Assembly (NCBI RefSeq): GCF_001586275.1
Contig: NZ_CP014545.1
Span: forward strand, 1,266,501-1,330,500
Reading direction: 5' to 3'
From: Sphingorhabdus sp. M41
GTDB taxonomy: Bacteria > Pseudomonadota > Alphaproteobacteria > Sphingomonadales > Sphingomonadaceae
DNA: 64,000 bases
The first letter of the stretch is position 1. The number at the start of each line of letters is the position of its first letter. Made by a program: the position numbers and the translations under genes. Shown one piece after another: positions 3,951 through 50,646 of the stretch. The notes under the pieces were generated by a model that was not told the origin of the DNA, made no database searches, and saw only the letters and a program-made list of their open reading frames with translations.

Positions 3951-4769
3951 ATGCCAGCACATTCCGCCCTTATCACCGTCATGGAGCGCGCAGCACGCAA
4001 GGCGGGTTCGCGCCTGCGCCGCGACTTTGGCGAAGTCGAGCATCTGCAGGTCTCCAAGAAGGGTCCTGCCGATTTCGTTTCCAAGGCGGATATGCGCGCC
4101 GAGCGGATTCTTTACGACGAGCTGCTGAAAGTGCGGCCCGGCTGGGGTTTCGTGCTCGAAGAAGGCGGCATGATCGAAGGCGAGGAAGGCAAGCCGCGCT
4201 GGATCATTGATCCGCTCGACGGCACCACCAATTTTCTTCACGGCATCCCCCATTTCGCCATTTCGATCGCGGTGCAGGAGCCATCGCTCGACGGCCGCGG
4301 CTGGGGCAAGATTACCAGTGGCCTGATCTACGAGCCGCTGACCGACCTGACCTGGTGGGCGGAAATGGACAAGGGTGCCTGGCTCGGCGAACGGCGTCTG
4401 CGCGTGTCGGCCCGCCGCGATCTCTCCGAATCCCTGATAGCCACCGGCATCCCGTTCAAGGGGCATGGCGATCTTGGCGAATGGGCGCGGATTTTCGGCG
4501 CCGTTGCGCCGCAAGTTGCTGGCATCCGCCGCAACGGCTCGGCCGCACTCGATCTCGCCTGGCTCGCTGCCGGCCGCTATGACGGCTTCTGGGAAGCCGG
4601 ACTGAAAGTCTGGGACGTTGCTGCAGGCATTTTGATGGTTCGCGAAGCCGGCGGTTTTGTCACCGATTATACCGGCGGCGATCAGCCGATTGGTCAGGGT
4701 GAAATATTGGCATCGAACGAAGCGCTGCACAGCAAGCTGCACCGGATATTGGCAAAGTCGCTGCTGTAA
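3951..4769 (+). CDS. suhB: Inositol monophosphatase family protein
   Basis: 272 residues. Mg-dependent, Li-sensitive phosphatase family acting on inositol-1-phosphate or related sugar phosphates; SuhB homologues also act in rRNA transcription in enterobacteria. Motifs: ADFVSKADMRAE near residue 40, EEGG (metal-binding Glu), IIDPLDGTTNF (the hallmark motif), and near the C-terminus LKVWDVAAGILMVREAGG. ATG 3951 is chosen over the out-of-frame ATG at 3946. The symbol is by family; the physiological substrate is not proven. The nuo operon begins 104 bases downstream. Confidence 0.88.
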   Translation: MPAHSALITVMERAARKAGSRLRRDFGEVEHLQVSKKGPADFVSKADMRAERILYDELLKVRPGWGFVLEEGGMIEGEEGKPRWIIDPLDGTTNFLHGIPHFAISIAVQEPSLDGRGWGKITSGLIYEPLTDLTWWAEMDKGAWLGERRLRVSARRDLSESLIATGIPFKGHGDLGEWARIFGAVAPQVAGIRRNGSAALDLAWLAAGRYDGFWEAGLKVWDVAAGILMVREAGGFVTDYTGGDQPIGQGEILASNEALHSKLHRILAKSLL

Positions 4770-4873
4770 CTGCGAATCGCTCGCAAAAGCCCATAATTTA
4801 AGCGACTTCGCCCTTGCGGCATGGGGAGCCACTGCCTAAAAGCGGCCCCGAATATTAGCGAAACGAGTCATCA

Positions 4874-5248
4874 GTGGTCGATCTTTCCGAATATGCACCG
4901 ATCTTATTGTTCCTGTTTGTAGCCGCGGGGCTGTCCACAGCCTTTGTGTTCCTGCCGATGGGCGTGTCCCGGCTGACCGGGACCCATAATCCGAGCGCGG
5001 AAAAGCTCTCGGAATATGAATGTGGCTTTCCCGCCTTTGAAGATTCGCGCAGCCAGTTTGATGTGCGCTTCTATCTGGTGGCGATCCTGTTCATCATTTT
5101 CGATCTTGAAGCGGCGTTTCTGTTCCCGTGGGCCGTGTCTCTTGATTTGACCGGCTGGGTGGGCTGGACGACGATGATGGTATTTCTCGCGGAACTGATC
5201 ATCGGTTTTGCTTATGCCTGGAAAGTGGGAGCGCTGGAATGGGACTAG
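4874..5248 (+). CDS. nuoA: NADH-quinone oxidoreductase subunit A
   Basis: 124 residues, three predicted membrane helices (about 8-28, 64-84, 92-114). Membrane subunit near the quinone site of complex I. The conserved loop motif SEYECGF (about 47-52) is present. Start is GTG 4874. The reading frame overlaps nuoB by ten bases. It is the first gene of a complete nuoABCDEFGHIJKLMN operon; the 104 bases upstream probably hold the operon promoter, but I could not define it. Confidence 0.95.
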
Positions 5249-5811
5249 AACCCAATAATAGCGGATCGGCGATTCTGAACGCTGACGGCACGCCGATGCG
5301 GACCGAGCAGCAGCCCGATGAGGGTTTCTTCAAGGATCTGAATTCGGAAGTGAATGACAAGGGCTTTCTGGTCACCTCGACCGAAGAGCTGTTTCAATGG
5401 GCCCGTACCGGTTCGCTCTGGTGGATGACTTTCGGCCTGGCCTGCTGTGCGGTCGAAATGATCCACGTCAACATGCCGCGCTACGACATGGAGCGCTTTG
5501 GCGCCGCACCGCGCGCCAGCCCGCGCCAGTCTGACGTGATGATCGTTGCCGGAACGCTTTGCAACAAAATGGCGCCGGCCTTGCGCAAGGTCTATGATCA
5601 GATGTCCAATCCGAAATATGTGATCTCGATGGGCAGCTGCGCCAATGGCGGCGGCTATTATCATTACAGCTATTCCGTGGTTCGCGGTTGCGACCGGATC
5701 GTTCCGGTTGATATTTATGTGCCTGGATGTCCGCCAACCGCAGAGGCTTTGCTCTACGGTGTGATGCAATTGCAGCGAAAGATCCGCCGCATCGGGACGT
5801 TTGAGCGCTAA
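5239..5811 (+). CDS. nuoB: NADH-quinone oxidoreductase subunit B
   Basis: 190 residues. Carries the terminal [4Fe-4S] cluster N2 that donates electrons to quinone. Ligands are visible: tandem Cys69-Cys70 in GLACCAVEM, Cys134 in [12 protein letters not shown], and Cys164 in [12 protein letters not shown]. The N-terminal ~45 residues are a hydrophilic extension of variable sequence. It overlaps nuoA by ten bases, and its stop ends two bases before the nuoC ATG. Confidence 0.97.
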
Positions 5812-5812
5812 T

Positions 5813-6595
5813 ATGGGTCATTCAGCACCAGCAATTTCCAGCAACGAGGGCGTCGCCGCCAAGCTTGGCAAGGCGATCGGCGCTGCCTTGCTGAATACCG
5901 TAGAAGCTTATGGCGAAATCAGCTTTACCGTCGAGCGCAAAAAGCTTGCCTCGGTCCTCGACAAGCTGCGCGACAAGCATGAATATCAACAATTGGTCGA
6001 GATTGCCGGCGTCGACTATCCGGATCGGCCGGAGCGTTTCGAGGTCTGCTATCATCTGCTCAGCCTGACCAAGAACCACCGCATCCGGGTCAAGGTCACA
6101 ACGGACGAAGACACGCCGGTGCCCAGCGTCACCCATATCTGGGAAGTTGCTGGCTGGCTCGAGCGCGAAGTGTTCGACATGTATGGCGTATTGTTCGACG
6201 GCAATACCGACCTGCGGCGGATCCTGACCGACTATGGGTTTCAGGGTCACCCGTTCCGCAAGGATTTTCCGCTGACCGGCTATGTCGAGATGCGCTATTC
6301 CGAAGAAGCCAAGCGCGTGGTCTACGAGCCGGTGAAACTGGCCCAAGATTTCCGCAGCTTTGATTTCATGTCGCCATGGGAAGGCGCCGACTATATCCTG
6401 CCCGGAGACGAAAAAGTGGGTGGCGAAGCGCCGCCGCCGACTCCGAAGACCACTGACAAAACAAGCGAAACTGGCGCTGGCGCGAAAGCCGACAAGGAGG
6501 CTGCCAAGCCCTCGAAGCGCAAAGAGGCTAACGTCAAAAAGCCGGCTCCGACACGGACCAAGTCCGGGACCCAGAAAAAGGGGGAGGGTAAGTGA
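5813..6595 (+). CDS. nuoC: NADH-quinone oxidoreductase subunit C with Lys/Ala/Thr-rich tail
   Basis: 260 residues from ATG 5813 (a TTG at 5801 inside nuoB is a less likely start). Peripheral-arm subunit, equivalent to the 30-kDa mitochondrial subunit. Core motifs: [20 protein letters not shown], then [20 protein letters not shown] and [18 protein letters not shown]. After about residue 199 a tail of about 60 residues is low-complexity, rich in K, A, T, P, E, and not part of the usual domain. The stop overlaps a short ORF that runs through a repeat to nuoD. Confidence 0.95.
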
Positions 6596-6655
6596 TGGCA
6601 AGCAACGCTCCCGTTTGTGTCGCGCGTAGACGAGACACTTCTATCCACCACAACC

Positions 6656-6734
6656 GGCTTCTCGACTTCGTTCGAAGCGAACGGGAGAGTGGAACTCTGG
6701 TTCACGGCTTCTCGACTTCGCTCGAAGCGAACGG
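6656..6734 (+). repeat. Tandem 29-base repeat in the nuoC-nuoD gap, within a bridging ORF
   Basis: Two copies of a 29-mer beginning GGCTTCTCGACTTCG lie at 6656-6684 and 6706-6734, 50 bases apart, with one mismatch; each can fold at TTCGC...GCGAA. They sit in a 51-codon ORF at 6595-6750 whose ATG overlaps the nuoC stop (TGATG) and whose TAA overlaps the nuoD ATG (TAATG). I count no internal stop. Whether the peptide (starting [12 protein letters not shown]) is functional is unknown; re-initiation coupling is inferred. Confidence 0.75.
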
Positions 6735-6749
6735 AAAGGTGGGCATCTA

Positions 6750-7982
6750 ATGTCTGACTATCTCGACGAAATGGACCATATCGCGGACGAGGCCGATCCG
6801 ACGGTTGGCGATCTGGAAATCCAGAATTTCACGATTAACTTCGGGCCCCAGCATCCCGCAGCGCACGGCGTGCTGCGCATGGTGATGGAACTGGACGGCG
6901 AGATTGTCGAACGGGTCGATCCGCATATCGGTCTGCTGCACCGCGGTACGGAAAAGCTGATCGAGCACAAGACCTATTTGCAGGCCTTGCCCTATTTTGA
7001 CCGGCTCGACTATTGCTCGCCGCTGGCGATGGAGCACAGCTATGTACTGGCGATCGAGAAATTGCTCGATCTTGAGGTTCCGCTGCGCGGCCAGTATCTG
7101 CGGGTATTGTTCGCCGAGCTGACCCGGATCTGCAACCATATGCTCAACATCGGTGCCCATGTCATGGATGTCGGCGCGATGACGCCGAATATCTGGGTGT
7201 TCGAGATTCGCGAGCAGTGCATGAACTTTTTCGAACGGGCCAGCGGCGCCCGCATGCACAGCGCCTGGTTCCGGCCCGGCGGCGTGCATCAGGACGTGCC
7301 GCTGAAACTGCTCACCGATATCGCCGACTGGCTGGACGAATTCCCGAAGCTGTTCGACGATGCGATGAGCCTGGTCGTCGGCAACCGCATTTTCAAGCAG
7401 CGCAATGTCGATATCGCGACGGTTTCGCAGGACGATGCCGTGCGCTGGGGCTTTTCCGGCCCGGTATTGCGCGGCAGCGGTGTCGCCTGGGATTTGCGCA
7501 AGTCGCAGCCTTATGACGTTTACGACCGGATGGATTTCGAAGTGCCGGTCGGTACCAAAGGCGATTGCTATGACCGGTTCATGGTGCGGGTCGAGGAGGT
7601 CCGGCAGAGCGCACGGATCATGCGCCAGTGCCTGAATGAAATGCCGGACGGGCCCGTTGCCTCGACCGATCGCAAGATTGTCCCGCCCAAGCGCGCCGAG
7701 ATGAAACAGTCGATGGAAGCGCTGATCCACCATTTCAAGCTCTATACAGAGGGCTTCCACGTTCCCGCCGGCGAAGTCTATGTCGCGACCGAAAGCCCGA
7801 AGGGCGAATTTGGTGTTTATCTGGTCAGCGATGGCAGCAACAAACCTTATCGCTGCAAGATCCGGCCGACCGCTTTCTCGCATCTGCAGGCGATGGATTT
7901 CATGACCAAAGGCCATATGTTGCCGGATGCCACTGCCATATTGGGCGCGATTGATATTGTGTTCGGGGAGTGTGACCGGTGA
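6750..7982 (+). CDS. nuoD: NADH-quinone oxidoreductase subunit D
   Basis: 410 residues. The 49-kDa subunit homologue, related to the large subunit of [NiFe] hydrogenases, forming the quinone cavity with NuoB. Motifs: [14 protein letters not shown] near residue 32, [36 protein letters not shown], and near the C-terminus [13 protein letters not shown] and [15 protein letters not shown] 6750 overlaps the stop of the upstream bridging ORF. The long antisense frame on the other strand is a shadow. Confidence 0.97.
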
Positions 7983-8001
7983 AATTACGCAATTCACATA
8001 A

Positions 8002-8086
8002 CGTCATTGCGAGGAGCGAAGCGACGCGGCAATCCAGAGCCTCGCGCGCAGACGCTCTGGATTGCTTCGCTACGCTCGCAATGACG
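8002..8086. repeat. 85-base inverted repeat in the nuoD-nuoE gap, within a bridging ORF
   Basis: CGTCATTGCGAGGAGCGAAG at the left is the near reverse complement of CTTCGCTACGCTCGCAATGACG at the right, and the inner arms AATCCAGAGC/GCTCTGGATT also pair, giving a long hairpin. It lies in a 39-codon ORF at 7979-8098 whose GTG overlaps the nuoD stop (GTGA) and whose TAA overlaps the nuoE ATG (TAATG). The encoded peptide contains VIARSEATRQS and CFATLAMT, read straight from the repeat. Confidence 0.85.
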
Positions 8087-8097
8087 GGAGTACGATA

Positions 8098-8763
8098 ATG
8101 GCTGAATCCCCAACCATCCCCGATGAAATCGAAACCCGCGCCAAATGGGGCGATTTTGCGTTTACGCCGGACAATGAAAAACTCGCCAAGTGGCAGATCG
8201 CGAAATATCCGGCTGGCCGCCAGAAATCGGCGGTCATGGCGCTGCTCGACCTCGCCCAGCGGCAGGTCGGTGCGGACACCAAGACGCAAGGCTGGCTGCC
8301 GGTTCCGGTGATCGAATATGTCGCCGCCTATCTCGATATGCCCTATATGCGGGCCTATGAAGTCGCGACCTTCTACACCATGTATAATCTGGCGCCGGTC
8401 GGTCGTTTTCACGTTCAGGTTTGCGGCACCACGCCGTGCATGCTGCGCGGCAGCGACGATGTGATGGCCGCCTGCAAGAACAAGGGCATGGCCAAGGGCA
8501 AGACCACGCCGGACGGGCTGTTTACCCTGACCGAGGTCGAGTGCATGGGCAATTGCTCGAACGCGCCGATGGTCCAGATCAACGACGATAATTACGAAGA
8601 TCTCAATTATGACGTCATGACCGGGATCCTTGAGGATCTGGCCGCAGGCAAGGATATCAAAGTCGGTTCGCAAATCGGTCGCAAGACCAGCGAAGCCGAG
8701 GGTGGTCCGACGAACCTGCACGCGATGGTCGATGAAAATCACGATTACCGGGGGGAATGGTGA
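8098..8763 (+). CDS. nuoE: NADH-quinone oxidoreductase subunit E
   Basis: 221 residues. The 24-kDa subunit with a thioredoxin-like [2Fe-2S] domain (cluster N1a) in the NADH-oxidising module. Ligands: Cys109 and Cys114 in CGTTPC, and Cys149 and Cys153 in VECMGNCSNAP. The frame is open further upstream into the repeat, but ATG 8098 (MAESPTIPDE) has GGGAG eight bases before it and overlaps the stop of the bridging ORF. The stop overlaps the next bridging ORF (TGATG). Confidence 0.96.
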   Translation: MAESPTIPDEIETRAKWGDFAFTPDNEKLAKWQIAKYPAGRQKSAVMALLDLAQRQVGADTKTQGWLPVPVIEYVAAYLDMPYMRAYEVATFYTMYNLAPVGRFHVQVCGTTPCMLRGSDDVMAACKNKGMAKGKTTPDGLFTLTEVECMGNCSNAPMVQINDDNYEDLNYDVMTGILEDLAAGKDIKVGSQIGRKTSEAEGGPTNLHAMVDENHDYRGEW

Positions 8764-8782
8764 TGGGTTTTTGTGCCAATAT

Positions 8783-8865
8783 CGTCATGCTGAACTTGTT
8801 TCAGCACCCCGCGCGGCAAGAGCGCTATTCTCCGATGGAGGTCCTGAAACAAGTTCAGGATGACG
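8783..8865. repeat. 83-base inverted repeat, copy 1 (nuoE-nuoF gap), within a bridging ORF
   Basis: CGTCATGCTGAACTTGTTTC pairs with GAAACAAGTTCAGGATGACG at the other end. A second copy of the same length is at 10324-10406. It lies in a 40-codon ORF at 8763-8885 whose ATG overlaps the nuoE stop (TGATG) and which ends in another TGATG; it is followed by the small membrane ORF at 8890. The peptide carries VMLNLFQHP and LKQVQDDE from the repeat. Confidence 0.85.
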
Positions 8866-8889
8866 AAAAGCGTGGAGGATATTGATGCC

Positions 8890-8982
8890 ATGCAAGTCGA
8901 CGGATATGCAGGCTGGATCGGGCTCGCCGTGGTTGTCCTTGGCATTATCGGCGGCCTGTGGGGCCGCTGGAGGAAAAAATAA
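8890..8982 (+). CDS. Predicted 30-residue single-span membrane protein upstream of nuoF
   Basis: ATG 8890 gives a 30-residue peptide starting [11 protein letters not shown], with a hydrophobic stretch of about 18 residues ([18 protein letters not shown]) and a basic tail GRWRKK. This is the pattern of a single membrane helix with a positive cytoplasmic end. GGAGGA at 8874-8879 is ten bases upstream; an in-frame GTG at 8872 would add six residues. The stop overlaps the nuoF ATG (TAATG). It belongs to neither repeat arm and differs from them in composition, so it looks like a real gene. Function unknown; it could be an accessory or assembly microprotein of complex I (inference). Confidence 0.6.
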
Positions 8983-10304
8983 TGGCGTTTGATTTCCTTC
9001 AGGACAAGGACCGCATCTTCACCAATGTCTATGGTTTCCAGTCGTGGGACCTGAAGGCGTCGCGGAAGCGCGGTGACTGGGACAATACCGCTGATATTAT
9101 CAAGCGCGGCAATGACAAGATTATCGAGGAAATGAAGGCCAGCGGCCTGCGCGGTCGCGGCGGGGCGGGTTTTCCGACCGGTCTGAAATGGTCGTTCATG
9201 CCCAAGGAAGCGCCCAAGGACAGCCAGGGCAATCCGCGGCCGAGCTTTCTCGTCATCAACGCCGATGAATCCGAGCCGGGCAGCTGCAAGGACCGCGAAA
9301 TCCTGCGCAACGATCCCCACAAGCTGATCGAAGGCGCGTTGATCGCCGGTTTCGCGATGCGCGCGCGGGCGGCCTATATCTATATTCGTGGCGAGTATAT
9401 TTTTGAAGCCAAGGTCATGGAGGCGGCCGTCAAGGAAGCCTATGACGCGGGGCTGATCGGCAAGAATGCCGCCAAATCCGGCTATGATTTCGACGTCTTC
9501 GTCCACCGCGGCGCCGGTGCCTATATCTGCGGCGAAGAAACCGCGATGATCGAAAGCCTCGAGGGCAAGAAGGGCCAGCCACGCCTGAAGCCGCCATTCC
9601 CTGCCGGTGCTGGTCTCTATGGCTGCCCGACGACGGTGAACAATGTCGAAAGCATAGCGGTCGTTCCAACGATCCTGCGGCGTGGCGCGGCCTGGTTCGC
9701 CAGCTTTGGCCGCGAAGGCAATCACGGCACAAAGCTCTTTCAGGTTTCCGGCCATGTCGACAAACCGGCGGTGTTCGAGGAAGCCATGTCGATCCCGTTC
9801 AAGGACATGATCGAGAAACATTGCGGCGGCATTACCGGCGGCTGGGACAATCTGCTTGCGGTCATTCCTGGCGGTTCTTCGGTTCCGCTGGTGCCGGCCG
9901 AGATGATCATGGACGCGCCAATGGACTTTGACGGGCTCAAGGAAGTTGGGTCTGGTCTCGGCACGGCGGCGGTCATCGTGATGGACAAGTCGACGGATAT
10001 CGTCCGCGCCATTTCGCGGCTCAGCTATTTCTACAAGCACGAAAGCTGCGGCCAGTGCACGCCGTGCCGCGAAGGCACCGGCTGGATGTGGCGGGTGATG
10101 GAAAAAATGCGCGATGGCGACGCCGAAATTGGCGATATCGATACGCTCTATGAAGTGACGAAGCAGGTCGAAGGTCACACCATCTGCGCCCTCGGTGATG
10201 CAGCGGCCTGGCCGATCCAGGGTCTGATCAGGCATTTCCGTCCCGAGATGGAGCGTCGAATAAACGAACATAAGGGCGCGCAAGTGATGGAGGCGGCGGA
10301 ATGA
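8982..10304 (+). CDS. nuoF: NADH-quinone oxidoreductase subunit F
   Basis: 440 residues. The 51-kDa subunit that binds NADH and FMN and carries cluster N3. Motifs: [15 protein letters not shown] (nucleotide binding), [34 protein letters not shown], and the [4Fe-4S] ligands [15 protein letters not shown] near residue 350 with HTICALGD about 40 residues later. The ATG at 8982 overlaps the stop of the small membrane ORF, and GGAGG at 8969-8973 is well placed. The stop overlaps the next bridging ORF. Confidence 0.97.
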
Positions 10305-10323
10305 TGGCGATTTCAACTCCCTT

Positions 10324-10406
10324 CGTCATCCTGAACTTGTTTCAGGACCCCCAAAGGCAGTTCGCGCTCGTTTCTCACGGGGTGCTGAAACAAGTTCAGC
10401 ATGACG
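10324..10406. repeat. 83-base inverted repeat, copy 2 (nuoF-nuoG gap), within a bridging ORF
   Basis: Same family and length as 8783-8865. It sits in a 43-codon ORF at 10304-10435 that starts on the nuoF stop (ATGATG context) and ends eight bases into nuoG. Both copies of this family are read in the same frame: VILNLFQDP and LKQVQHDE here match the peptide at the nuoE-nuoF gap. Confidence 0.85.
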
Positions 10407-10427
10407 AATGTTTTTCGGAGACCATCC

Positions 10428-12443
10428 ATGCCTAAAGTCACCGTAGATGGCATCGAAATCGAAGTGCCCCAGGGCGCGACCGTGCTGCAGGCTGCAGAGC
10501 TTGCGGGCAAGGAAATCCCGCGTTTCTGTTATCATGAGCGGCTGAGCATCGCGGGCAATTGCCGCATGTGTCTGGTTGAGGTGAAGCCGGGACCACCGAA
10601 GCCGCAGGCGAGCTGTGCCTTGCCCGCCGCCGAAGGTCAGGAAATCCGCACCGACAGCGAAATGGTCAAGAAGGCGCGCGAAGGGGTGATGGAGTTTCTC
10701 CTGATCAACCATCCGCTCGATTGTCCTATTTGCGATCAGGGCGGCGAATGCGACCTTCAGGATCAGGCGATGGCCTATGGCAAGGGGGGATCGCGCTACG
10801 AAGAGAATAAGCGCGCGGTTACCGAGAAATATATGGGGCCGATCATCAAGACGGCGATGACCCGCTGCATCCATTGTACGCGCTGTGTTCGCTTTGCCGA
10901 GGAAGTCGCTGGCGTCGAGGAAATCGGCGCTATTGGCCGCGGCGAAGGGATGCAGATTACTTCCTATCTCGAAGGCGCGGTGCACAGCGAATTGTCCGGC
11001 AATGTTGTCGATCTCTGCCCGGTTGGCGCGCTGACCAGCAAGCCTTATGCTTTTGAAGCGCGTCCCTGGGAACTGACCAAGACGCTCGGCATCGATGTGA
11101 TGGACGGAGTTGGCACCAATATCCGCATCGACAGTCGTGGCCGCGAAGTGCTGCGCGCTTTGCCGCGCGTCAATGATGACGTGAACGAGGAATGGGCGAC
11201 CGACAAGACTCGCCACGCAATCGACGGCCTGATGAAGCGCCGCCTCGACAAGCCTTATGTGCGCAGGAACGGCAAGCTGGAAGAAGCGACCTGGAACGAA
11301 GCGTTTCAGGCTATCGCCGATGTCAACGCAGGCAGCTCGGTTACCGCTATTGCCGGCGATCTGGTTGATTGCGAAACAATGTACGCCGCGAAAAAGCTGC
11401 TGAAATCAATGGGATCGGATATGCTGGAAGGCCGGCAAACCGGGCTTTCCTATGATGTGTCCAATCTCGCTGCGGTGAATTTCAACTCGACCATCGCCGG
11501 TATCGAGGAAGCGGATGTGATCCTGCTGGTCTCGACCAATCCGCGCTGGGAAGCGTCGCTGGTCAACACCCGTATCCGCAAGGCGGTACGCAAGGGCAAT
11601 ACGAAAGTCTTTGGTATCGGACCGGAAGCAGACCTGACCTATCCGGTCGAATGGCTTGGTGACGATATGGGGCTGCTCGGCAAGCTGCCGAATGCGGTCA
11701 AGGATGCTCTGGAGCAGGCGGAAAAACCCGCGCTGATTCTGGGCGGCGGCGGATTGAGCGTAGATGGCGTGCATGGTGCGGCCCTGAAACTTGCGAAACA
11801 GTTCAAGCTTGTGCGCGAAGGCTGGAACGGCTTCAACGTGCTGCATATCGGCGCCTCGCGCACCGGCGGTCTGATGCTCGGCTATGCCCATGAGGGTGGC
11901 ATCAGGGCGATTGCGGAAAAGAAACCGAAATTGCTGTTCGCACTGGGTGCGGACGAAATGAATTACGAGCCGTTCAAGGACAGCTTCAAGGTCTTCATCG
12001 GTCATCACGGCGATACTGGCGCTCATGCAGCGGACGTAATCCTGCCTGGTTCCGCCTATACCGAGAAAAACGGCACTTATGTCAATCTGGAAGGCCGCGT
12101 GCAGCGTTCGAACAAGGCGATCTTTGCGCCGGGCGATGCGCGCGAAGACTGGAGCATATTGCGGGCTTTATCTGATGTGATGGGCAAGACACTGCCGTTC
12201 GACAGTTTCGCGGAATTGCGCGGCAACATGGCGATGGATCATCCTGAACTGGCCGTCGAGGGGCTTGTCTCAATGGCATGGAACCCGCCATCCGGTTTGC
12301 CGGACAAGCCAAAGGGGCAGGGCGTCCATCCGGTCAAGGATTTCTACCTGACCAACAGTATCGCCCGGGCCAGTGGCACGATGCAGCGCTGTTCCGCAGA
12401 ATTGTTGCATGCCGATGACGAGATTATGGAGGCGGCAGAATGA
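10428..12443 (+). CDS. nuoG: NADH-quinone oxidoreductase subunit G
   Basis: 671 residues, the usual alphaproteobacterial/mitochondrial 75-kDa length, shorter than the ~900 residues of enterobacterial NuoG. N-terminal [2Fe-2S] ferredoxin domain: CYHERLSIAGNCRMC then SCALP. The HPLDCPICDQGGECDLQDQ segment holds the His/Cys-ligated N5 cluster, and CIHCTRCVRFAEEVAG with CPVGALTSKP holds N4. The rest is a molybdopterin-oxidoreductase-like domain. ATG 10428 (MPKVTVDGIEIE) is chosen; the in-frame ATG 10401 lies in the repeat. Confidence 0.96.
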   Translation: MPKVTVDGIEIEVPQGATVLQAAELAGKEIPRFCYHERLSIAGNCRMCLVEVKPGPPKPQASCALPAAEGQEIRTDSEMVKKAREGVMEFLLINHPLDCPICDQGGECDLQDQAMAYGKGGSRYEENKRAVTEKYMGPIIKTAMTRCIHCTRCVRFAEEVAGVEEIGAIGRGEGMQITSYLEGAVHSELSGNVVDLCPVGALTSKPYAFEARPWELTKTLGIDVMDGVGTNIRIDSRGREVLRALPRVNDDVNEEWATDKTRHAIDGLMKRRLDKPYVRRNGKLEEATWNEAFQAIADVNAGSSVTAIAGDLVDCETMYAAKKLLKSMGSDMLEGRQTGLSYDVSNLAAVNFNSTIAGIEEADVILLVSTNPRWEASLVNTRIRKAVRKGNTKVFGIGPEADLTYPVEWLGDDMGLLGKLPNAVKDALEQAEKPALILGGGGLSVDGVHGAALKLAKQFKLVREGWNGFNVLHIGASRTGGLMLGYAHEGGIRAIAEKKPKLLFALGADEMNYEPFKDSFKVFIGHHGDTGAHAADVILPGSAYTEKNGTYVNLEGRVQRSNKAIFAPGDAREDWSILRALSDVMGKTLPFDSFAELRGNMAMDHPELAVEGLVSMAWNPPSGLPDKPKGQGVHPVKDFYLTNSIARASGTMQRCSAELLHADDEIMEAAE

Positions 12444-12460
12444 ATAATTTAACCGCCATT

Positions 12461-12597
12461 TTTCCTCCTTGTGCGAAGCACGGGGAGGGGGACCATCCGC
12501 AGGATGATGGAGGGGCACCGCGCTACCTCACTGCGTTCGGCCCCTCCGTCACGCCTTCGGCGCGCCACCTCCCCAAAGCTGCGCTTCAGGGAGGAAA
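12461..12597 (+). repeat. Long palindromic element, copy 1 (nuoG-nuoH gap), within a bridging ORF
   Basis: About 137 bases with outer arms TTTCCTCC/GGAGGAAA, and the blocks GGGGAGGGGGACCATCCGCAGG, CGTTCGGCCCCTCCGTC and GCGCCACCTCCCCAAAGC that recur at 14198-14332. It is contained in a 55-codon ORF at 12440-12607 with four-base ATGA overlaps at both ends (nuoG stop, nuoH start). GGGAGG at 12589-12594 is the nuoH Shine-Dalgarno, so the repeat provides the ribosome site. Confidence 0.85.
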
Positions 12598-12603
12598 TAT
12601 TAG

Positions 12604-13662
12604 ATGACCGAATATCTCCAAACCACCTTCCTTGGTGCCGAGCTCGGCTGGTTCGTTGCCACGCTGGCCCTGATCCTGCTGATCGCTCTGCCGCTGATGC
12701 TGGCCGTTGCGATGATCATTTATGTTGACCGGAAAATCTGGGCGGCCATGGCGCTGCGGCGCGGACCCAATGTGGTGGGTCCCTTTGGCCTGCTGCAAAG
12801 CTTTGCCGACGGTCTGAAAGTTTTCCTGCAGGAAACGATCATTCCGTCGAGCGCCAACAAGGGCCTATTCCTGCTGGCGCCGATTATCACGTTCACCGTG
12901 GCCCTGCTCGCCTGGGCGGTCATTCCATTCGGCGAAGACATGGTCCTCGCCAATATCAATATCGGGCTCCTCTATATATTGGCGGTCAGTTCGCTCGGTG
13001 TTTACGGCGTGGTCATTGCCGGTTGGGCGAGTAACTCCAAATATCCGTTCTTCTCCGCCATGCGCGCCGCCGCGCAGATGATTTCCTACGAAGTCTCGAT
13101 CGGTTTCGTCCTGATTTCGGTGGTGCTGTTTGCCGGAACCTTCAACCTTTCCGACATCATCATGGCCCAGAAGGGTCATATTTTTGGTCTGGTCAATGCC
13201 TATGGCCTGAACCCGCTGCTGTTTCCGATGGCGGTGGTGTTCCTGATCGCCTCGATGGCGGAAACGGCGCGCCATCCATTCGACCTGACCGAAGCGGAAA
13301 GCGAGCTGGTCGCCGGTTACCAGACCGAATATAGTTCGATGTCCTTCGCTCTGTTCTGGCTCGGCGAATATGCCAATATCCTGCTGATGTGCGCGCTTAA
13401 CGCGATCCTGTTCTGGGGTGGCTGGCTGCCGCCGCTGGATGTCGACTGGATTCCGTGGTTCGATATTCCGGGCATCTTCTGGCTGTTCGGCAAGATGTTC
13501 TTTTTCTTTTTCATCTTCAGCTGGGTGATGGCGACGGTCCCGCGCTACCGCTATGACCAGCTGATGCGTCTGGGCTGGAAAATATTCCTGCCGCTTAGCC
13601 TGCTCTGGGTGTTCCTGATCAGCGGCTATGTGATGATTGACAAGTTTGGATTGCCGCTATGA
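12604..13662 (+). CDS. nuoH: NADH-quinone oxidoreductase subunit H
   Basis: 352 residues, about eight membrane helices. Homologue of mitochondrial ND1; contributes to the quinone tunnel and links the peripheral and membrane arms. Motifs: [20 protein letters not shown] near residue 40, [27 protein letters not shown], and [25 protein letters not shown] 12604 overlaps the bridging-ORF stop, and the Shine-Dalgarno comes from the repeat end. Its stop overlaps nuoI directly (ATGA), one of five nuo junctions without a repeat. Confidence 0.97.
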
Positions 13663-14144
13663 ATATCGCACAAACCATCAAGGCCTTCACCCTTTGGGAA
13701 TTTATCGGCGCGCATATGCTGACGCTGAAATATTTCTTCAAGGCGAAGAAGACGATCAATTATCCCTATGAAAAAAACCCGATTTCGCCGCGGTTCCGGG
13801 GGGAGCATGCGTTGCGCCGCTATCCCAATGGCGAGGAACGCTGCATTGCCTGCAAGCTGTGCGAAGCGGTCTGCCCGGCGCAGGCGATAACGATCGAGGC
13901 CGAGCCGCGCGAAGACGGCTCGCGCCGCACCACACGCTATGACATTGACATGACCAAGTGCATCTATTGCGGTTTCTGCCAGGAGGCGTGCCCGGTCGAT
14001 GCGATTGTCGAGGGTCCGAATTTCGAATATGCGACGGAAACGCGCGAAGAGCTGATTTACGACAAATCGAAACTGCTGGAAAATGGCGACAAATGGGAGC
14101 GGGCAATCGCGGCAAACCTTGCCGCCGATGCGCCCTATCGTTAA
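13659..14144 (+). CDS. nuoI: NADH-quinone oxidoreductase subunit I
   Basis: 161 residues. Ferredoxin-type subunit carrying two [4Fe-4S] clusters (N6a/N6b): [15 protein letters not shown] and [15 protein letters not shown]. The N-terminal segment includes the conserved [20 protein letters not shown]. It overlaps nuoH by four bases. The stop codon TAA overlaps the ATG of the bridging ORF toward nuoJ (TAATG). Confidence 0.97.
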
Positions 14145-14197
14145 TGGGCGCTGTGATGAATCCAATGGGGGAAAATGTGCAAAAATATGCTGAACTT

Positions 14198-14332
14198 TTC
14201 CTCCTCGTGCGCAGCACGGGGAGGGGGACCATCCGCAGGATGGTGGAGGGGCTATGCGCCATCCTCACTTCGTTCGGCCCCTCCGTCGCGCATTCTGCGC
14301 GCCACCTCCCCAAAGCTTCGCTTCAGGGAGGT
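14198..14332 (+). repeat. Long palindromic element, copy 2 (nuoI-nuoJ gap), within a bridging ORF
   Basis: Same family as 12461-12597. It lies in a 65-codon ORF at 14144-14341 with TAATG overlaps at both ends (nuoI stop, nuoJ start). The left half is read in a different frame from copy 1, the right half in the same frame (ARHLPKASLQGG here, ARHLPKAALQGG in copy 1). GGGAGG at 14326-14331, the element's right end, is the nuoJ Shine-Dalgarno. Confidence 0.85.
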
Positions 14333-14340
14333 TGCGCATA

Positions 14341-14952
14341 ATGCAAATATTTGCTTTCTATCTATTCGCATCCATCGTGCTTGCCAGCGGTGCTTTCTGC
14401 ATCTTCGCGCGCAATCCGGTGCATAGTGTCTTGTGGCTGATCCTCGCGTTTTTCAACGCGGCGGGTCTGATGCTGCTGGTTGGCGCGGAATTTATCGCGG
14501 CGCTGCTGGTCATCGTCTATGTTGGCGCGGTTGCAGTCCTGTTCCTGTTTGTCGTGATGATGCTCGACATTGATTTTGCCGAATTGCGAGCGGGCTTCAT
14601 GAAAAACCTGCCGCTTGGTCTGTTGCTGGCGCTGGTGCTGGTGGTCGAGATTATCTTCGGCGTGGGCACCTGGCAGTCCGCGGGCATGGGCGAGGCCACT
14701 GCTGCGGTCGGCCTGCCGGAAGGCGCGCCGTCTAATATCGAACAGCTGGGTGCCTTGCTCTACAGCAAATATGTCTTCCTGTTCGAGGCCGCGGGCATGA
14801 TCCTGCTGGTTGCGATGGTCGGCGCGATCGTGCTGACGCATCGTACGCGTGGTGGCGTCCGCAAACAGAATATCGCAGATCAGGTCGCTCGCCGGCCCGA
14901 AGACGCGACCCGCAATACGCAGCCTGAAGTCGGCAAGGGAGTGGAACTGTGA
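14341..14952 (+). CDS. nuoJ: NADH-quinone oxidoreductase subunit J
   Basis: 203 residues, about five membrane helices; ND6 homologue in the membrane arm. Motifs: ARNPVHSVLWLIL, EFIAALLVIVYVGAVAVLFLF with the unusual pi-bulge helix region, and VAMVGAIVLTHR. ATG 14341 is chosen rather than the upstream ATG at 14254, which lies in the repeat. The stop codon overlaps the ATG of the next bridging ORF (TGATG). Confidence 0.95.
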   Translation: MQIFAFYLFASIVLASGAFCIFARNPVHSVLWLILAFFNAAGLMLLVGAEFIAALLVIVYVGAVAVLFLFVVMMLDIDFAELRAGFMKNLPLGLLLALVLVVEIIFGVGTWQSAGMGEATAAVGLPEGAPSNIEQLGALLYSKYVFLFEAAGMILLVAMVGAIVLTHRTRGGVRKQNIADQVARRPEDATRNTQPEVGKGVEL

Positions 14953-14976
14953 TGCAGAATCTATCGGCTCCGTCCA

Positions 14977-15063
14977 CCGTTCGTCCTGAGCCTGTCGAAG
15001 GACCCGGTTCGTCGGTAAAATCGCGTTTCGACAGCTGTGCTTCGACAGGCTCAGCACGAACGG
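14977..15063. repeat. RPELVEG-type inverted repeat, copy 1 (nuoJ-nuoK gap), within a bridging ORF
   Basis: CCGTTCGTCCTGAGCCTGTC at the left pairs with CTTCGACAGGCTCAGCACGA at the right. It lies in a 51-codon ORF at 14952-15107 that starts on the nuoJ stop (TGATG) and ends on the nuoK start (ATGA). The left arm is read as VRPEPVEGP, the same frame as at the nuoK-nuoL gap and inside trpE. Confidence 0.85.
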
Positions 15064-15103
15064 ATTTTCTTTCCGCCAGATATTCAGCAGCCGGGGATAT
15101 GTC

Positions 15104-15409
15104 ATGATCGGTATCGAACATTATCTCGTCGTCAGCTCCATCCTGTTCGTGATGGGGATGCTCGGCATATTTCTCAACCGCAAGAATATCATCATCATCC
15201 TGATGGCGATCGAATTGATCCTGCTTGCGGTGAATCTCAATTTTGTCGCGTTCAGCGCCTTTCTCGGCGATATGACCGGACAGGTGTTCGCCATGTTCAT
15301 CCTGACCGTGGCCGCAGGCGAGGCCGCCATCGGGCTGGCCATTCTCGTGATTTACTTCCGTCAGCGCGGCACCATTGCCGTCGATGATGTCAACCGGATG
15401 AAGGGGTGA
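15104..15409 (+). CDS. nuoK: NADH-quinone oxidoreductase subunit K
   Basis: 101 residues, three membrane helices; ND4L homologue. Motifs: [30 protein letters not shown] with the conserved membrane glutamate, and [13 protein letters not shown] with the second conserved glutamate of the proton path. ATG 15104 overlaps the stop of the upstream bridging ORF. The stop overlaps a GTG that opens the next bridging ORF. Confidence 0.97.
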
Positions 15410-15430
15410 ACATGAGTTCGTCTAACATTA

Positions 15431-15504
15431 CCGTTCGCCCTGAGCCTGTCGAAGGGCAGGTTGCGCGCACTCCGTTCATATTTCGACAAGCTCAGCACGA
15501 ACGG
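15431..15504. repeat. RPELVEG-type inverted repeat, copy 2 (nuoK-nuoL gap), within a bridging ORF
   Basis: CCGTTCGCCCTGAGCCTGTC at the left pairs with TTCGACAAGCTCAGCACGAA at the right. The containing ORF, 15406-15522 (38 codons from GTG, or 36 from ATG 15412), starts on the nuoK stop (GTGA) and ends on the nuoL start (GTGA). The hexamer GTGAAC occurs at both edges (15406-15411 and 15519-15524), which looks like a target duplication. Confidence 0.85.
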
Positions 15505-15518
15505 CTCCGGGGGCAAGC

Positions 15519-17528
15519 GTGAACAGCATCATCCTCATAGTTTTCCTGCCTTTGCTGGCAGCGATTGTTGCCGGTTTCGGCAATCGTATCATCGGTAATG
15601 TGCCAGCGAAAATCGTCACAACGGGCGCGCTATTCGCTTCTTGTGCCTTGAGCTGGCCGGTATTCATCGGCTTTCTGAGCGGAGCCAGCAGCGCGGAAGT
15701 GGTGCCGGTTCTGACCTGGATTATATCCGGTGACCTGAATTTTGACTGGGCCCTGCGCGTTGATGCGCTGACTGCCGTGATGCTTGTCGTGGTAACCACC
15801 GTGTCCGCTCTCGTGCATCTCTATTCATGGGGCTATATGGACGAAGATCCGGATCAGCCGCGCTTCTTCGCCTATCTGTCGCTGTTTACCTTTGCCATGC
15901 TGATGCTGGTCACGGCGAATAATCTGGTTCAGATGTTCTTTGGCTGGGAAGGCGTTGGCCTGGCGTCCTATCTGCTGATCGGTTTCTGGTTCAAGAAGCC
16001 CAGCGCCAATGCGGCCGCGATCAAGGCTTTCGTTGTCAACCGCGTTGGCGACCTTGGCTTCATGCTCGGTATTTTCGGTACGTTTCTGGTCTTCGGCACG
16101 GTGTCCATTCCCGAAATCCTCGAAGCCGCTCCGGCAATGGCCGGTTCGTCGATCACCTTTGCCGGCATGCGTCTCGATACGATGACCATTCTCTGCCTGC
16201 TGCTGTTCATCGGCGCGATGGGCAAGTCGGCACAGCTTGGTCTGCACACATGGCTGCCTGACGCGATGGAAGGGCCGACACCGGTTTCCGCTCTGATCCA
16301 CGCCGCTACCATGGTCACCGCAGGCGTATTCATGGTCTGCCGTCTTTCGCCAATGTTTGAAACCAGTCCGGTGGCTCTGATGGTCGTCACCATCGTTGGC
16401 GCTTCGACCGCGATATTTGCTGCCACGGTTGGCCTGGTCCAGCATGACATAAAGCGGGTGATCGCTTATTCTACCTGTTCACAGCTCGGCTATATGTTCT
16501 TCGCCGCTGGTGTCGGGGCATATAGCGCGGCGATGTTCCACTTGTTCACCCATGCCTTTTTCAAGGCGCTGCTGTTCCTTGGCGCCGGTTCGGTGATCCA
16601 CGCAATGCATCACGAACAGGACATGCGCTATTATGGCGGCCTGCGGAAAGAAATCCCGCTGACATTCTGGGCGATGATGGCCGGAACGCTGGCGATTACC
16701 GGTGTCGGTATCGTCGGCCTTGGCGGTTTTGCCGGCTTCTATTCCAAGGACGCGATTATCGAGGTTGCCTTTGCCAGCGGCACCGAAGTCGGCCAGTTCG
16801 CCTTCTTCATCGGCGTGCTCGCTGCGCTGCTGACCAGCTTCTACAGCTGGCGACTGATGTTCCTGACCTTCTGGGGCACGCCGCGCTGGATCCAGTCCGA
16901 GCATATTCAACATAGCGTCCATAAAACGCCCGAGGAAGCCGGCGCCGATCAAACCGGCGGCTATCATCCTCATGAAAGTCCTGTTTCCATGCTTATCCCA
17001 CTTGGCGTTTTGGCCACCGGTGCGGTTTTCGCCGGTTTCGTCTTCCACAATCAGTTTGTTGAAGCAGCCGAGGGTGCCGTTTTCTGGGCCGGAAGCCTGG
17101 CTTTCAACGAGCATCTGATGCACGAAATTCACGAAGTGCCGCTGTGGGTGAAGCTGTCCTCGACCGTCGCCATGCTGACCGGTCTCGGAACTGCCATCTT
17201 CATGTATTTCTTCGGCAAGGACCGTCCCGCGCGTCTGGCCGCGACCTTCAGCCCGCTTTACCAGTTCTTCTTCAACAAATGGTATTTCGACGAGCTCTAC
17301 AATCTGATCTTCATCCGCCCCGCTTTCTGGCTGGGACGCAAATTCTGGAAGACGGGTGACGAAGGCACGATCGACCGCTTTGGCCCCAATGGTATTGCTT
17401 CGGTGATCGCCAGCGGCTCCGGCGTGATGAAACGCTTCCAGAGCGGATATCTTTATACTTATGCGCTCGTCATGTTGCTTGGCCTCGCTGCCGCAGCGAC
17501 CTGGATTATCGTGCAGGGAGCCAGCTAA
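15519..17528 (+). CDS. nuoL: NADH-quinone oxidoreductase subunit L
   Basis: 669 residues; ND5-type antiporter-like proton-pumping subunit with about 16 membrane helices and a long lateral helix at the C-terminal end. Motifs: [74 protein letters not shown]. Start GTG 15519; no ATG fits, and the GTG overlaps the bridging-ORF stop. It overlaps nuoM by one base (TAATG). Confidence 0.97.
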
Positions 17529-19066
17529 TGAACCAGCTTGATTTCCCGATCCTGTCCCTGATGATGGGACTGCCGATGCTGGCAGCGATTATCTGCCTGT
17601 TCCTCAATGCGCAGGCGGCGCGCTGGCTGGCGCTTGTGACGACGCTGGTGCTGTTCGGCCTGGGTGTGCTGCTCTGGGCCAATTACGATATTGGCGGTCC
17701 GCAGTGGCAATATGTGGAGCGGTCCGAACTCTTCGGAAATTTTGCCTGGGCGCTGGGGATCGATGGCATTTCGATGATGCTGATCATGCTCACCGTCTTC
17801 CTGATGCCGATCTGCATCGGTGCCAGCTGGGAATCGATCCAGACCAGGGTCGGCGAATATATGGCGGCTTTCCTGTTCATGGAGGTGCTGATGATCGGCG
17901 TCTTTGCGGCGCAGGATATCTTCCTCTTCTATATCCTCTTCGAGGCTGGCCTGATCCCGATGTATCTGATAATCGGCATCTGGGGCGGCGCCAACCGGAT
18001 TTACGCCAGCTACAAATTCTTCCTCTACACTTTGCTCGGTTCGGTGGTGATGCTGATCGCGATGCTGTGGATGGTGCAGGATGCCGGAACCAGCGATATC
18101 CCGACGTTGCTCAACTATGATTTTGCGCCCGAGGCGCAGACTTGGCTGTGGCTGGCTTTCTTTGCCAGCTTTGCGGTGAAGATGCCGATGTGGCCGGTCC
18201 ATACCTGGCTGCCCGATGCCCACGTTCAGGCACCGACCGCCGGTTCGGTCATATTGGCTGGCGTATTGCTGAAAATGGGTGGCTACGGCTTCCTGCGCTT
18301 CTCGCTGCCAATGTTCCCGGAAGCGTCCGAACAGTTCATCTGGCTGGTCTTCGGCCTGTCAATGGTGGCTGTGGTCTACACGTCTCTCGTTGCGCTGGTG
18401 CAGCAGGATATGAAGAAGCTGATCGCTTATTCGTCGGTTGCCCATATGGCGATCGTCACGCTCGGCCTGTTCGCGTTCAACCGTCAGGGCATTGAAGGCG
18501 CGATTGTCGTGATGCTGAGCCACGGTCTGGTATCCGGCGCGCTGTTCCTCTGCGTCGGCGTGATTTACGACCGGCTGCACACACGCGAAATCGATCGCTA
18601 CGGCGGGCTGGCGATCAACATGCCGAAATATGCAATATTGTTCCTGCTGTTCACCATGGCCTCGATCGGCCTGCCGGGCACCAGCGGTTTCGTTGGCGAA
18701 TTTCTCTCGCTGATCGGCCTGTACAAGGTCAACAGCTGGGTCACGCTTGTCGCTACTACGGGTATCATCCTGGGCGCCGGCTATATGCTCTATCTCTATC
18801 GCCGGGTTGCCTTCGGTGAGCTTGTTCACGAGGATGTCAAAGCCATGCCGGACCTTTCTGCCCGGGAAATGGCGTTGCTCGCGCCTATCGCCGCTGCTGT
18901 GATGTGGATGGGTGTCTATCCCGAAAGCTTCATGGCGCCGATCCGCGGTGACGTGGGAGCGCTGGTTGCACGCATCGACCGCGCCGCACCGGAAGGCGAT
19001 GCGCACCTCAAAATGGGTGAGGCGAAACCGGCAATCAAAGATGAAGCCCATGGGGAGGCGCACTAA
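17528..19066 (+). CDS. nuoM: NADH-quinone oxidoreductase subunit M
   Basis: 512 residues; ND4-type antiporter-like subunit with about 14 helices. Motifs: [19 protein letters not shown] with the conserved glutamate, [54 protein letters not shown] overlaps at both ends with nuoL and nuoN, with no repeats. The C-terminal ~30 residues are hydrophilic and variable. Confidence 0.97.
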
Positions 19067-20520
19067 TGAACCTTGCATCTTCTCTCTGGCTGGTATCGCC
19101 GGAAGTCTTCCTGTCGGTCTCGAGCCTGATCCTGCTGCTGGTAGCGGCGTGGAGCCAGGAAAAGGCCGCGCGTCTGATCACCATATTGTCGGTTGCCGCG
19201 CTTTTTGGCGCTTCGATCTTGTTGATGGTGCTGGCACACAAGCCCGAATTCAAGGGCGGAGCGGAAGCCTTTGACGGCCTCTATCGCATGGATGCCTTTG
19301 GCAGTTCGGCGAAATTCCTGGTCTATCTGGCGGCGATCATATCGCTGATCGTTGCGCCGCGCTTCTTCCAGGACGGCGGGAAATATCGGTCGGAATATCC
19401 GGTCCTGATCCTCTTCGCCACGATCGGCATGGGGATGATGGTCTCTGCCACCGACATGATGACCCTCTATATCGGTCTCGAACTGAACAGCCTGTCCGCC
19501 TATGTGCTAGCCAGCTTTATTCGCACCGACATAAGATCTTCCGAAGCCGGCCTGAAATATTTTGTGCTCGGCGCGCTGGCTAGCGGCATGCTGCTCTTCG
19601 GTATCTCGCTGGTCTATGGCTTTGCCGGTTCGACCAGCTTCGCGGTGATTGGCGAAACCCTGAACGGCGATCTTTCCACTGGCCCGCTGATCGGACTGGT
19701 GCTGGTGCTCTCGGGGCTTGCCTTCAAGATCAGCGCCGTGCCCTTCCATATGTGGACGCCCGACGTTTACGAAGGCGCACCGACGCCGGTCAGTGCCTTT
19801 TTCGCCAGCGCCCCGAAAGTTGCCGCGGTAGCTTTGACAGCGCGCGTGATCATCGAAGCCTTCGGTGGCCAGACTTCGGCCTGGCAGCAGATCATCGTAT
19901 TTGTGGCCTTGGCCTCTATCATTCTTGGTGCGGTCGCCGCGATCGGACAGCAGAATATCAAGCGTCTGCTGGCTTATAGCTCGATCAACAATGTCGGCTT
20001 CCTGCTGATCGGTCTCGCTACCGGGACCGCTCAGGGCATTTCCGCGATGATGTTCTATCTGGCGATCTATGTAGCGATGACATTGGGCAGCTTTATATGT
20101 GTGCTCGAAATGCGCGACAAGGATGGCAAGCCGCTGGAAAGCCTGTCCAGCCTGGCCGGATTGTCGCAGACGCGTCCCGGTCTTGCCGCTGCTTTCGCGA
20201 TATTCATGTTCTCGCTGGCCGGCATTCCGCCGCTATTCGGTTTCTGGGGCAAGTTCATGGTCTTTGATGCCGCCGTTGCTGCGGGCATGTTGCCGCTGGC
20301 GGTCATCGGTATTGCCGCTTCGGTAATTGGCGCCTTTTATTACATCAAGGTGGTCAAGATCATCTATTTCGACAATCCTGCCAACGAGATCGTGGTCACG
20401 GGACATAAGGCGGAAAATATATTGATCGCCATATTGGCGCTCTGTGTGTCACCGCTAGGCTATCTAGCGATACCGGCGATCGCGCCTATAACTGCCGCAG
20501 CGGCAGCGGCGCTCTTCTGA
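19066..20520 (+). CDS. nuoN: NADH-quinone oxidoreductase subunit N
   Basis: 484 residues; ND2-type antiporter-like subunit, about 14 helices. Motifs: YIGLELNSLSAYVLASF, EAGLKYFVLGALASGMLLFG, VPFHMWTPDVYEGAPTPVSAFF, KRLLAYSSINNVGF, SLAGIPPLFGFWGKF. Last gene of the nuo set. Its stop is in a CTGA context that may couple it to birA, whose product follows in a common alphaproteobacterial order. Confidence 0.97.
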   Translation: MNLASSLWLVSPEVFLSVSSLILLLVAAWSQEKAARLITILSVAALFGASILLMVLAHKPEFKGGAEAFDGLYRMDAFGSSAKFLVYLAAIISLIVAPRFFQDGGKYRSEYPVLILFATIGMGMMVSATDMMTLYIGLELNSLSAYVLASFIRTDIRSSEAGLKYFVLGALASGMLLFGISLVYGFAGSTSFAVIGETLNGDLSTGPLIGLVLVLSGLAFKISAVPFHMWTPDVYEGAPTPVSAFFASAPKVAAVALTARVIIEAFGGQTSAWQQIIVFVALASIILGAVAAIGQQNIKRLLAYSSINNVGFLLIGLATGTAQGISAMMFYLAIYVAMTLGSFICVLEMRDKDGKPLESLSSLAGLSQTRPGLAAAFAIFMFSLAGIPPLFGFWGKFMVFDAAVAAGMLPLAVIGIAASVIGAFYYIKVVKIIYFDNPANEIVVTGHKAENILIAILALCVSPLGYLAIPAIAPITAAAAAALF

Positions 20521-21230
20521 CCATTGTCATAGAGAATGTTGCCGAAACCGCATCGACCAATGCGGACCTGAAAGCATTGTCTCTGAGTGGCAGCGCGCCG
20601 GAAGGGTTCTGGCTGCGGGCCGCGCAACAGACGGGTGGGGTCGGGCGTCGGGGCCGCAAATGGGAAAGTCCGCAAGGCAATCTCTATTGCAGTACCGTGA
20701 TTGACATACGGCCCTCTGACCCACCACCTTCTTCCTTGTCCTTTGTCGCCGGACTGGCCGTCCATGCGGCCATTCGTGCGGCCCTGCCGGACGTGCCGAT
20801 GCTGTTGAAATGGCCGAATGACGTTCTCGTATCGGACTCCAAGATATGCGGTATCCTGCTGGAGCGCGTTAAAGATCAGGTAGTGGTCGGCATTGGCGTG
20901 AATGTCGCTGTCGCGCCCGAAGTCGAGGGGCGGTCTGTGACCAGCCTTGCAGCGGAAGGGGCGGAAATCGACGCTGCCGGATTTCTCGACAAACTGTCCC
21001 GAGAGTTCGAGGCATGCGTAACAGAATGGCGAAATGCCGGATTGGCTCCTATTCTAGAGAAATGGCAGAGTCTGGCGCATCCGGTTGGCATGGCCGTGAC
21101 GACAAGTGACCATGGTGGCGAGAAAATCACCGGAGAATTTGCCGGCCTGCAAGCAGACGGTGCGCTGCGCTTGAGAAAAGCCGACGGAACGCTTATCGAA
21201 ATACGCGCCGGTGACATTTCAATCGGATAG
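20517..21230 (+). CDS. birA: Biotin-[acetyl-CoA-carboxylase] ligase
   Basis: About 237 residues. Attaches biotin to the biotin carboxyl carrier protein. Class I type without an N-terminal DNA-binding domain. Motifs: ETASTNADL at the N-terminus, GRRGRKWESPQGNLY (biotinyl-AMP loop), LKWPNDVLV, ICGILLE, VVGIGVNV. The only common start codon nearby is TTG 20577, which would cut off the conserved STN segment. I therefore propose CTG 20517, overlapping the nuoN stop (CTGA); ATT 20523 is an alternative. The exact start is uncertain. Confidence 0.85.
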   Translation: MTIVIENVAETASTNADLKALSLSGSAPEGFWLRAAQQTGGVGRRGRKWESPQGNLYCSTVIDIRPSDPPPSSLSFVAGLAVHAAIRAALPDVPMLLKWPNDVLVSDSKICGILLERVKDQVVVGIGVNVAVAPEVEGRSVTSLAAEGAEIDAAGFLDKLSREFEACVTEWRNAGLAPILEKWQSLAHPVGMAVTTSDHGGEKITGEFAGLQADGALRLRKADGTLIEIRAGDISIG

Positions 21231-50514: not shown

Positions 50515-50646
50515 GCACATAAAACAATTGTTTTCGCTAGATGTTGGCAGATGTCGAATCTGTCCAATATATTTTACAGGATGTGACTATTGTCACGCGA
50601 ATACGGTGCAAGGGAGCTGGCAAAAGCTTCCAGACAGGACCGAGGG

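Follow-up and report, generated by a model that had tools for sequence, protein, structure and literature searches.

The 64,000-nucleotide (nt) stretch of the Sphingorhabdus sp. M41 genome analysed here (the window; contig NZ_CP014545.1, forward-strand positions 1,266,501 to 1,330,500) contains the complex I operon nuoA-nuoN at 4874-20520, in a source genome of one 3.34 Mb contig. Ten proteins encoded by its forward-strand region from nuoC to nuoL (5813..17528) match complex I subunit families in Pfam; nuoA, nuoB, nuoM and nuoN are named from gene order. Five junctions of this operon are repeat-free and overlapping or nearly so, as the original prediction on this DNA had stated (A-B -10, B-C +1, H-I -4, L-M -1, M-N -1). 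The other eight carry inserts with gaps of 109-218 nt, and each insert is crossed by an open reading frame (ORF), here called a bridge, whose start codon overlaps the stop codon of the upstream gene.

All eight predicted bridges were found in the sequence, on the forward strand. The C-D bridge (6595..6750, with a GTG start also at 6592) spans a family E repeat at ~6612-6742, and the D-E bridge (7979..8098) spans a family D palindrome at ~8002-8092, whose predicted hairpin has a folding energy of -55 kcal/mol (z -7.4). Behind nuoE, the bridge 8763..8885 (start also at 8757) crosses a family A palindrome at 8782-8876 (hairpin z -4.8) and ends 5 nt before orfX (8890..8982), an ORF for a 30-residue hydrophobic protein whose stop codon runs into the nuoF ATG at 8982; from an ATG on the bridge stop at 8885, a further ORF extends to 8992. 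A second family A palindrome (10313-10407; hairpin z -5.2) lies within the F-G bridge (10304..10435, start also at 10301). Family C elements occupy the G-H bridge (12440..12607, element 12460-12594) and the I-J bridge (14144..14341, element 14196-14331), while family B palindromes occupy the J-K bridge (14949..15107, palindrome 14977-15063) and the K-L bridge (15406..15522, palindrome 15431-~15505). Seven bridges had been said to end on the next start codon. This is exact for six of the eight, through TAATG at C-D, D-E and I-J and through ATGA or GTGA at G-H, J-K and K-L; the F-G bridge instead stops 5 nt past the nuoG ATG (10428-10430), giving an 8-nt overlap.

The claim of at least five unrelated repeat families also held, as we found five, all of which have other copies in this genome. 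Folded in silico, four of them after trimming to 150 nt, the eight inserts reach minimum energies between -38 and -82 kcal/mol, and z lies below -4 in six of the eight, the C-D (z -0.8) and K-L (z -1.9) hairpins being unremarkable. At G-H, the predicted hairpin pairs the GGGAGG before nuoH with a UCCUCC at the opposite end of the element, so that a translating ribosome would both open the nuoH site and arrive there. An Rfam search of 4500-21000 at the gathering threshold gave no match, and a promoter and terminator scan returned fewer sites than in shuffles. A plasmid search with the G-H element retrieved 13 sphingomonad records, none covering 80% of it. Elsewhere in the source genome (1936105-1936785, locus L113), family C half-elements stand in a regular array between divergent genes, their spacing being 208 nt. 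The sphingomonads include N. aromaticivorans. This species is named in a paper on the CGTC-tagged repetitive extragenic palindromes (REPs) of Alphaproteobacteria, which are described there by a CGTC tag, an AT-starting stem and a CCA tail (PMC3733652). Judged by eye against the published text, families A and D resemble these REPs in a CGTC-AT start and a palindrome, the window's F-G copy ending in CCC; the comparison covered these two families, and the excerpt of that paper at hand draws no link to translational coupling (PMC3733652).

To count bridges, we scored a bridge as strict when its start overlaps the upstream stop and its stop falls within -4 to +8 of the downstream start. In the relaxed definition, adopted after the strict result had been seen, the start may lie at -3 to +25 of the upstream stop, and an insert is called tiled when a chain of at most three ORFs covers the way from stop to start. 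Within the window, the relaxed definition finds all eight nuo gaps bridged, as against one of the 12 co-directional gaps of 60-450 nt outside nuo. That one (50515-50646) has a low palindrome score and may be a small gene or a chance bridge. Multiplied over the seven window junctions other than E-F, the chance probabilities come to ~2e-6 if random own-genome repeats are placed in random phase, and to 0.0018 if only the phase of the existing content is randomised. The decisive counts are those from relatives rather than from the window alone, and overall the pattern proved stronger than the original prediction had it.

For the relatives we took up to 21 kb around nuoH from each of the best 80 of 553 loci, and added the window; among the nearest loci listed are Sphingorhabdus sp. 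109 (NuoH 96% identical) and Parasphingorhabdus flavimaris (95%). Together these loci yielded 228 inserts of 40-330 nt, leaving out those with N, below 40 or above 330 nt. Of these, 113 were classed as repeat-like: 67 qualified through their palindrome score, and 46 resembled an insert from a different junction or a repeat found outside the operon in the window's genome. Strict bridging was counted at the overlap-type junctions (B-C, C-D, D-E, F-G, G-H, H-I, J-K and L-M); E-F was left out because of orfX, and one A-B insert falls outside all groups. Strict bridges were found there at 63 of 66 repeat-like inserts, or at 42 of 44 sequence clusters by majority, against 24.9 of 66 expected for the same content and ends in random phase, 9.9 for random own-genome repeats and 6.6 for the reverse complement. 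The relaxed definition leaves the count at 63/66 (29.1 expected).

At I-J and K-L the upstream stop often has no overlapping start, and strict bridges number 7/17 inserts (2/9 clusters) and 7/10, respectively; with the relaxed start they become 17/17 and 10/10, versus 3.8 and 4.0 expected. On its strict count I-J had been considered as a negative control; this role, together with the claim that repeats there mostly fail to bridge, was dropped because of the relaxed result. By tiling, all 113 repeat-like inserts are covered, 101 of them by one ORF, where random repeat content predicts 48.9; the figures split into 93/93 outside E-F (39.2 expected) and 20/20 at E-F (9.7 expected). Other inserts are tiled in 67/82 cases outside E-F (30.6 expected) and in 32/32 at E-F (15.1 expected).

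Unlike I-J, the G-H and J-K junctions have a -4 stop/start overlap in the repeat-free state. All 81 G-H junctions resolve, under the relaxed definition, into 34 overlaps (-4), 45 bridged, one fused in frame into nuoH and one unbridged, and all 76 J-K junctions into 57 overlaps (-4), 18 bridged and one fused; the empty -4 J-K junction is seen in L006-L010. Gaps of 20-330 nt equal 1 modulo 3 in 44/46 cases at G-H and in 16/16 at J-K. This is the value needed by a bridge with 1- or 4-nt overlaps, empty -4 junctions being 2 modulo 3. C-D and D-E are mixed (6/8/13 and 6/20/2 gaps at 1/0/2 modulo 3). Their gaps at 0 modulo 3 mostly end with an 8-nt overlap, in ATGxCTGA, 7 nt beyond the start. Many C-D gaps at 2 modulo 3 are start-call errors; so are the 35- and 50-nt C-D gaps of Sphingopyxis-type loci, where the frame from the upstream ATGA reaches the nuoD end. 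At G-H of L040 the bridge is continuous with the nuoH frame, and its insert may have become an N-terminal extension of NuoH. The 235-nt I-J insert of L018 contains a degenerate CGTCATCCCCGCGAAA-type repeat and has no open frame from stop to start.

The same repeats occur elsewhere in the source genome. Five family searches gave 133 repeat places, merged to 95 sites, of which 63 lie between co-directional genes as called by a codon-usage script (7 of these in nuo); family B copies are incompletely represented, with 40 of 72 candidates scored. The tested set comprised 34 distinct co-directional junctions outside the window with gaps up to 200 nt. These other intergenic copies offered a way to refute the original prediction, and it was not refuted: strict bridging occurs at 9/34, against 2.0-4.6 expected under four nulls, among them random repeats (2.6; simulated P 0.00015) and random phase (4.6; P 0.007). 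The bridged junctions presumably include hisH-hisA, glyQ-glyS, trpA-accD, pdxJ-acpS, sufC-sufD and imuB-dnaE2, as named from their protein ends. We compared the own-genome junctions in three of four relatives located. Strict bridging was found at 7 of 9 junctions with at least one overlapping relative, at 2 of the 13 whose relatives have short junctions without overlap and at none of the 12 for which the relatives read offered no junction of at most 60 nt; under the relaxed definition the same classes give 9/9, 4/13 and 0/12. Of the two strict failures with overlapping relatives, one frame starts 5 nt past the stop (3178287) and the other runs into the next gene (2907570). Thus, judging from the 25 of 34 strictly unbridged sites and from the tie to overlapping relatives, bridging is not a property of the repeats themselves.

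The reading frame of the bridges is maintained while their peptide drifts. Across 56 pairs of related bridges (at least 70% identity, nine loci), substitutions at codon positions 1/2/3 number 392/422/381, and pairs sharing no sequence give 117/110/116; the deficit at positions 1 and 2 that marks a small-protein gene is not seen in repeat-derived bridges. Between homologous inserts, the length changes by a multiple of three in 9/11 steps at overlap-type junctions plus K-L and in 0/4 at I-J. Some pairs, such as the window and L008 at G-H, carry compensated frameshifts, whereby the same DNA is read in another frame that is still open. Moreover, family B is read in two frames, yielding one peptide type in 6 bridges and a VLSLSK-like type in 14.

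Selection for continuous translation probably best explains the bridged repeat inserts, as judged from their phase and placement. Ordinary dispersed palindromic repeats would have landed at junctions with a usual gene overlap of 1 or 4 bases, and the survivors would be those inserts, or later repairs, with an open frame from on or near the upstream stop to on or near the downstream start. A ribosome finishing one gene would restart on the bridge, melt the RNA hairpin of the repeat while translating it, and finish on the start codon of the next gene, so that the chain stays coupled. We infer translation and re-initiation from sequence. The gain from a bridge could be coupling itself, access to the ribosome-binding site that follows, or protection against Rho, which sequence does not tell apart. 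An experimental study in E. coli and Haloferax reports that a gap of ~20 nt nearly abolishes coupling and that gene overlaps are enriched in complexes (PMC10666635).

Several observations weigh against selection for continuity. The relaxed and tiling definitions followed the failure of the strict one at I-J and K-L. By eye, two I-J inserts look repeat-derived, yet they fall below the class thresholds and are untiled: one of 235 nt in L018 and one of 142 nt in L052. Untiled are also 15 of 114 non-repeat inserts, three of them start-call errors at C-D; they include I-J gaps of 41-42 nt, a length at which short non-repeat I-J gaps are mostly untiled, so that an untranslated gap is tolerated there. 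One 399-nt G-H insert (L062) has no bridge. Other alphaproteobacterial families contributed 26 of the 30 loci given, drawn from 246 matching genomes of 289; among gaps longer than 40 nt, none of four at G-H is tiled, three of these coming from one family (f42), and all four at H-I are. The untiled gaps in other families and at short I-J junctions indicate that nuo genes do not require continuity absolutely in every setting. Finally, the genomes are related to one another, and kinship is corrected in the cluster counts only.

The benefit might also be mere cover, with translation keeping Rho off the mRNA or the hairpin melted and re-initiation being incidental; this is a serious possibility, though we would not expect it to prove the full account. 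It would fit the strong hairpins of the inserts, the GGAG-type sites that several downstream genes have of their own, and the behaviour of I-J, which has a ~27-50 nt gap in most repeat-free relatives and still bridges all 17 repeat-like inserts (relaxed). However, bridging in the source genome follows overlapping ancestry (9/9 versus 4/25, relaxed), and bridges usually end on stop/start overlaps, not merely close to them.

It is unlikely that the repeats instead choose and duplicate NTGA stop/start targets, the open frame being a property of the element that arose without selection. Insert ends do share ATGA, TGAT or GTGAACA-like strings when compared by eye with empty relatives, and mycobacterial interspersed repetitive units (MIRUs) are described, in the excerpted source, as inserting in this way (PMC12548453). 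However, the requirement for a stop and a start imposes part of this identity, and target duplication would account for the ends, not for phase or stop-free content, as the phase-only null of 24.9/66 versus 63 observed makes plain. The strictly unbridged sites and the two frames of family B speak against it as well. The same evidence divides the two interpretations offered with the original prediction: selection against elements that break coupling fits bridging elsewhere that exceeds chance and is concentrated at overlapping ancestry, while a repeat family adapted to stop/start junctions is not supported, given 25/34 strictly unbridged sites and a family read in two frames.

That the bridges are functional small complex I proteins is highly improbable. 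The same junctions do hold, as further inserts, small hydrophobic ORFs that resemble real genes, and orfX is conserved; the repeat-derived bridges, however, lack codon-position bias, and their peptide varies with frame or repeat family. Chance helped by generous definitions is scarcely credible, for although repeats are often open and the same content in random phase bridges 38%, the observed 63/66 strict and 113/113 tiled stand against 25 and 49 expected, counts that refute it unless the null models are at fault.

The original prediction knew of no description of this pattern, a claim that did not stand, as MIRUs and the short ORFs of integron attC sites are precedents according to the excerpts of two papers (PMC12548453, PMC8876359). 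MIRUs appear to insert at start codons, with the repeat ORF coupled to the gene at -4 spacing (PMC12548453, citing Supply et al. 1997 as source). As in MIRUs, the repeat ORF here overlaps the next start by 4 nt or 1 nt, exactly so in 6 of 8 window bridges. In contrast to MIRUs as described, several unrelated and mostly hairpin-forming families are involved here, and bridging is not intrinsic to them; the MIRU trait of one family carrying its own ORF to each site gives way to five families, 25/34 strictly unbridged sites and two frames, and the evidence is of selection on phase in many genomes. The attC short ORFs, and ORF-11, ORF-17 and ORF-18 of attI1, begin after the preceding stop, cross a palindromic hairpin, which the attC ORFs relieve, and favour the next cassette by termination-reinitiation, amino acid changes in ORF-11 having a slight effect only, as far as that excerpt goes (PMC8876359). 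The nuo bridges likewise begin at the preceding stop and traverse a palindromic hairpin; attC sites, however, are cassette recombination sites, whereas the nuo inserts are dispersed repeats in a core operon. ERIC/RU-1, YPAL/RU-2, RU-3 and the Rickettsia palindromic elements are also small palindromic repeats with in-phase open frames, but the excerpts describe ERIC/RU and Rickettsia elements as fused in frame into a gene, whereas the nuo bridges are separate intergenic ORFs in which we saw no peptide constraint (PMC2759123, PMC2229807). Our search of open-licence papers did not find unrelated palindromic families converging on coupling, or phase evidence for its selection. New here are several unrelated palindromic families, in many genomes, with evidence of selection on frame rather than on product.

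Small ORFs of another kind occupy the same junctions. orfX is matched at 60-93% identity in 13 other loci among the best 80 of 553, and in other sphingomonads E-F holds different hydrophobic small ORFs. At G-H, Sphingopyxis-type loci encode a conserved protein of 45-46 residues (MTPVHAIAS...NGWRNQDG and variants), chained by 4-nt overlaps (L029, L034-L036, L050, L063, L068, L070-L072, L074 and L081). The D-E junctions of L013, L029, L036, L037 and L070 hold hydrophobic ORFs of ~60 residues (LRELAIL...GRYIERGL-like) with an 8-nt overlap with nuoE. We put forward, only tentatively and with some doubt, that sphingomonad operon junctions filter insertions and fix only translatable ones of any sequence; the frame would then be selected without a product, the bridges would form a standing supply of small ORFs, and the hydrophobic proteins at E-F, D-E and G-H may descend from them.

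Natural insertions can take the place of reporter constructs in a sequence-only test of where translational coupling matters, the phase of an insert showing whether an untranslated gap was tolerated. This bears on the dispute between ribosome scanning and a need for overlaps. It also accounts for one source of spurious small ORFs among annotated genes, and points to a route by which new genes could arise.

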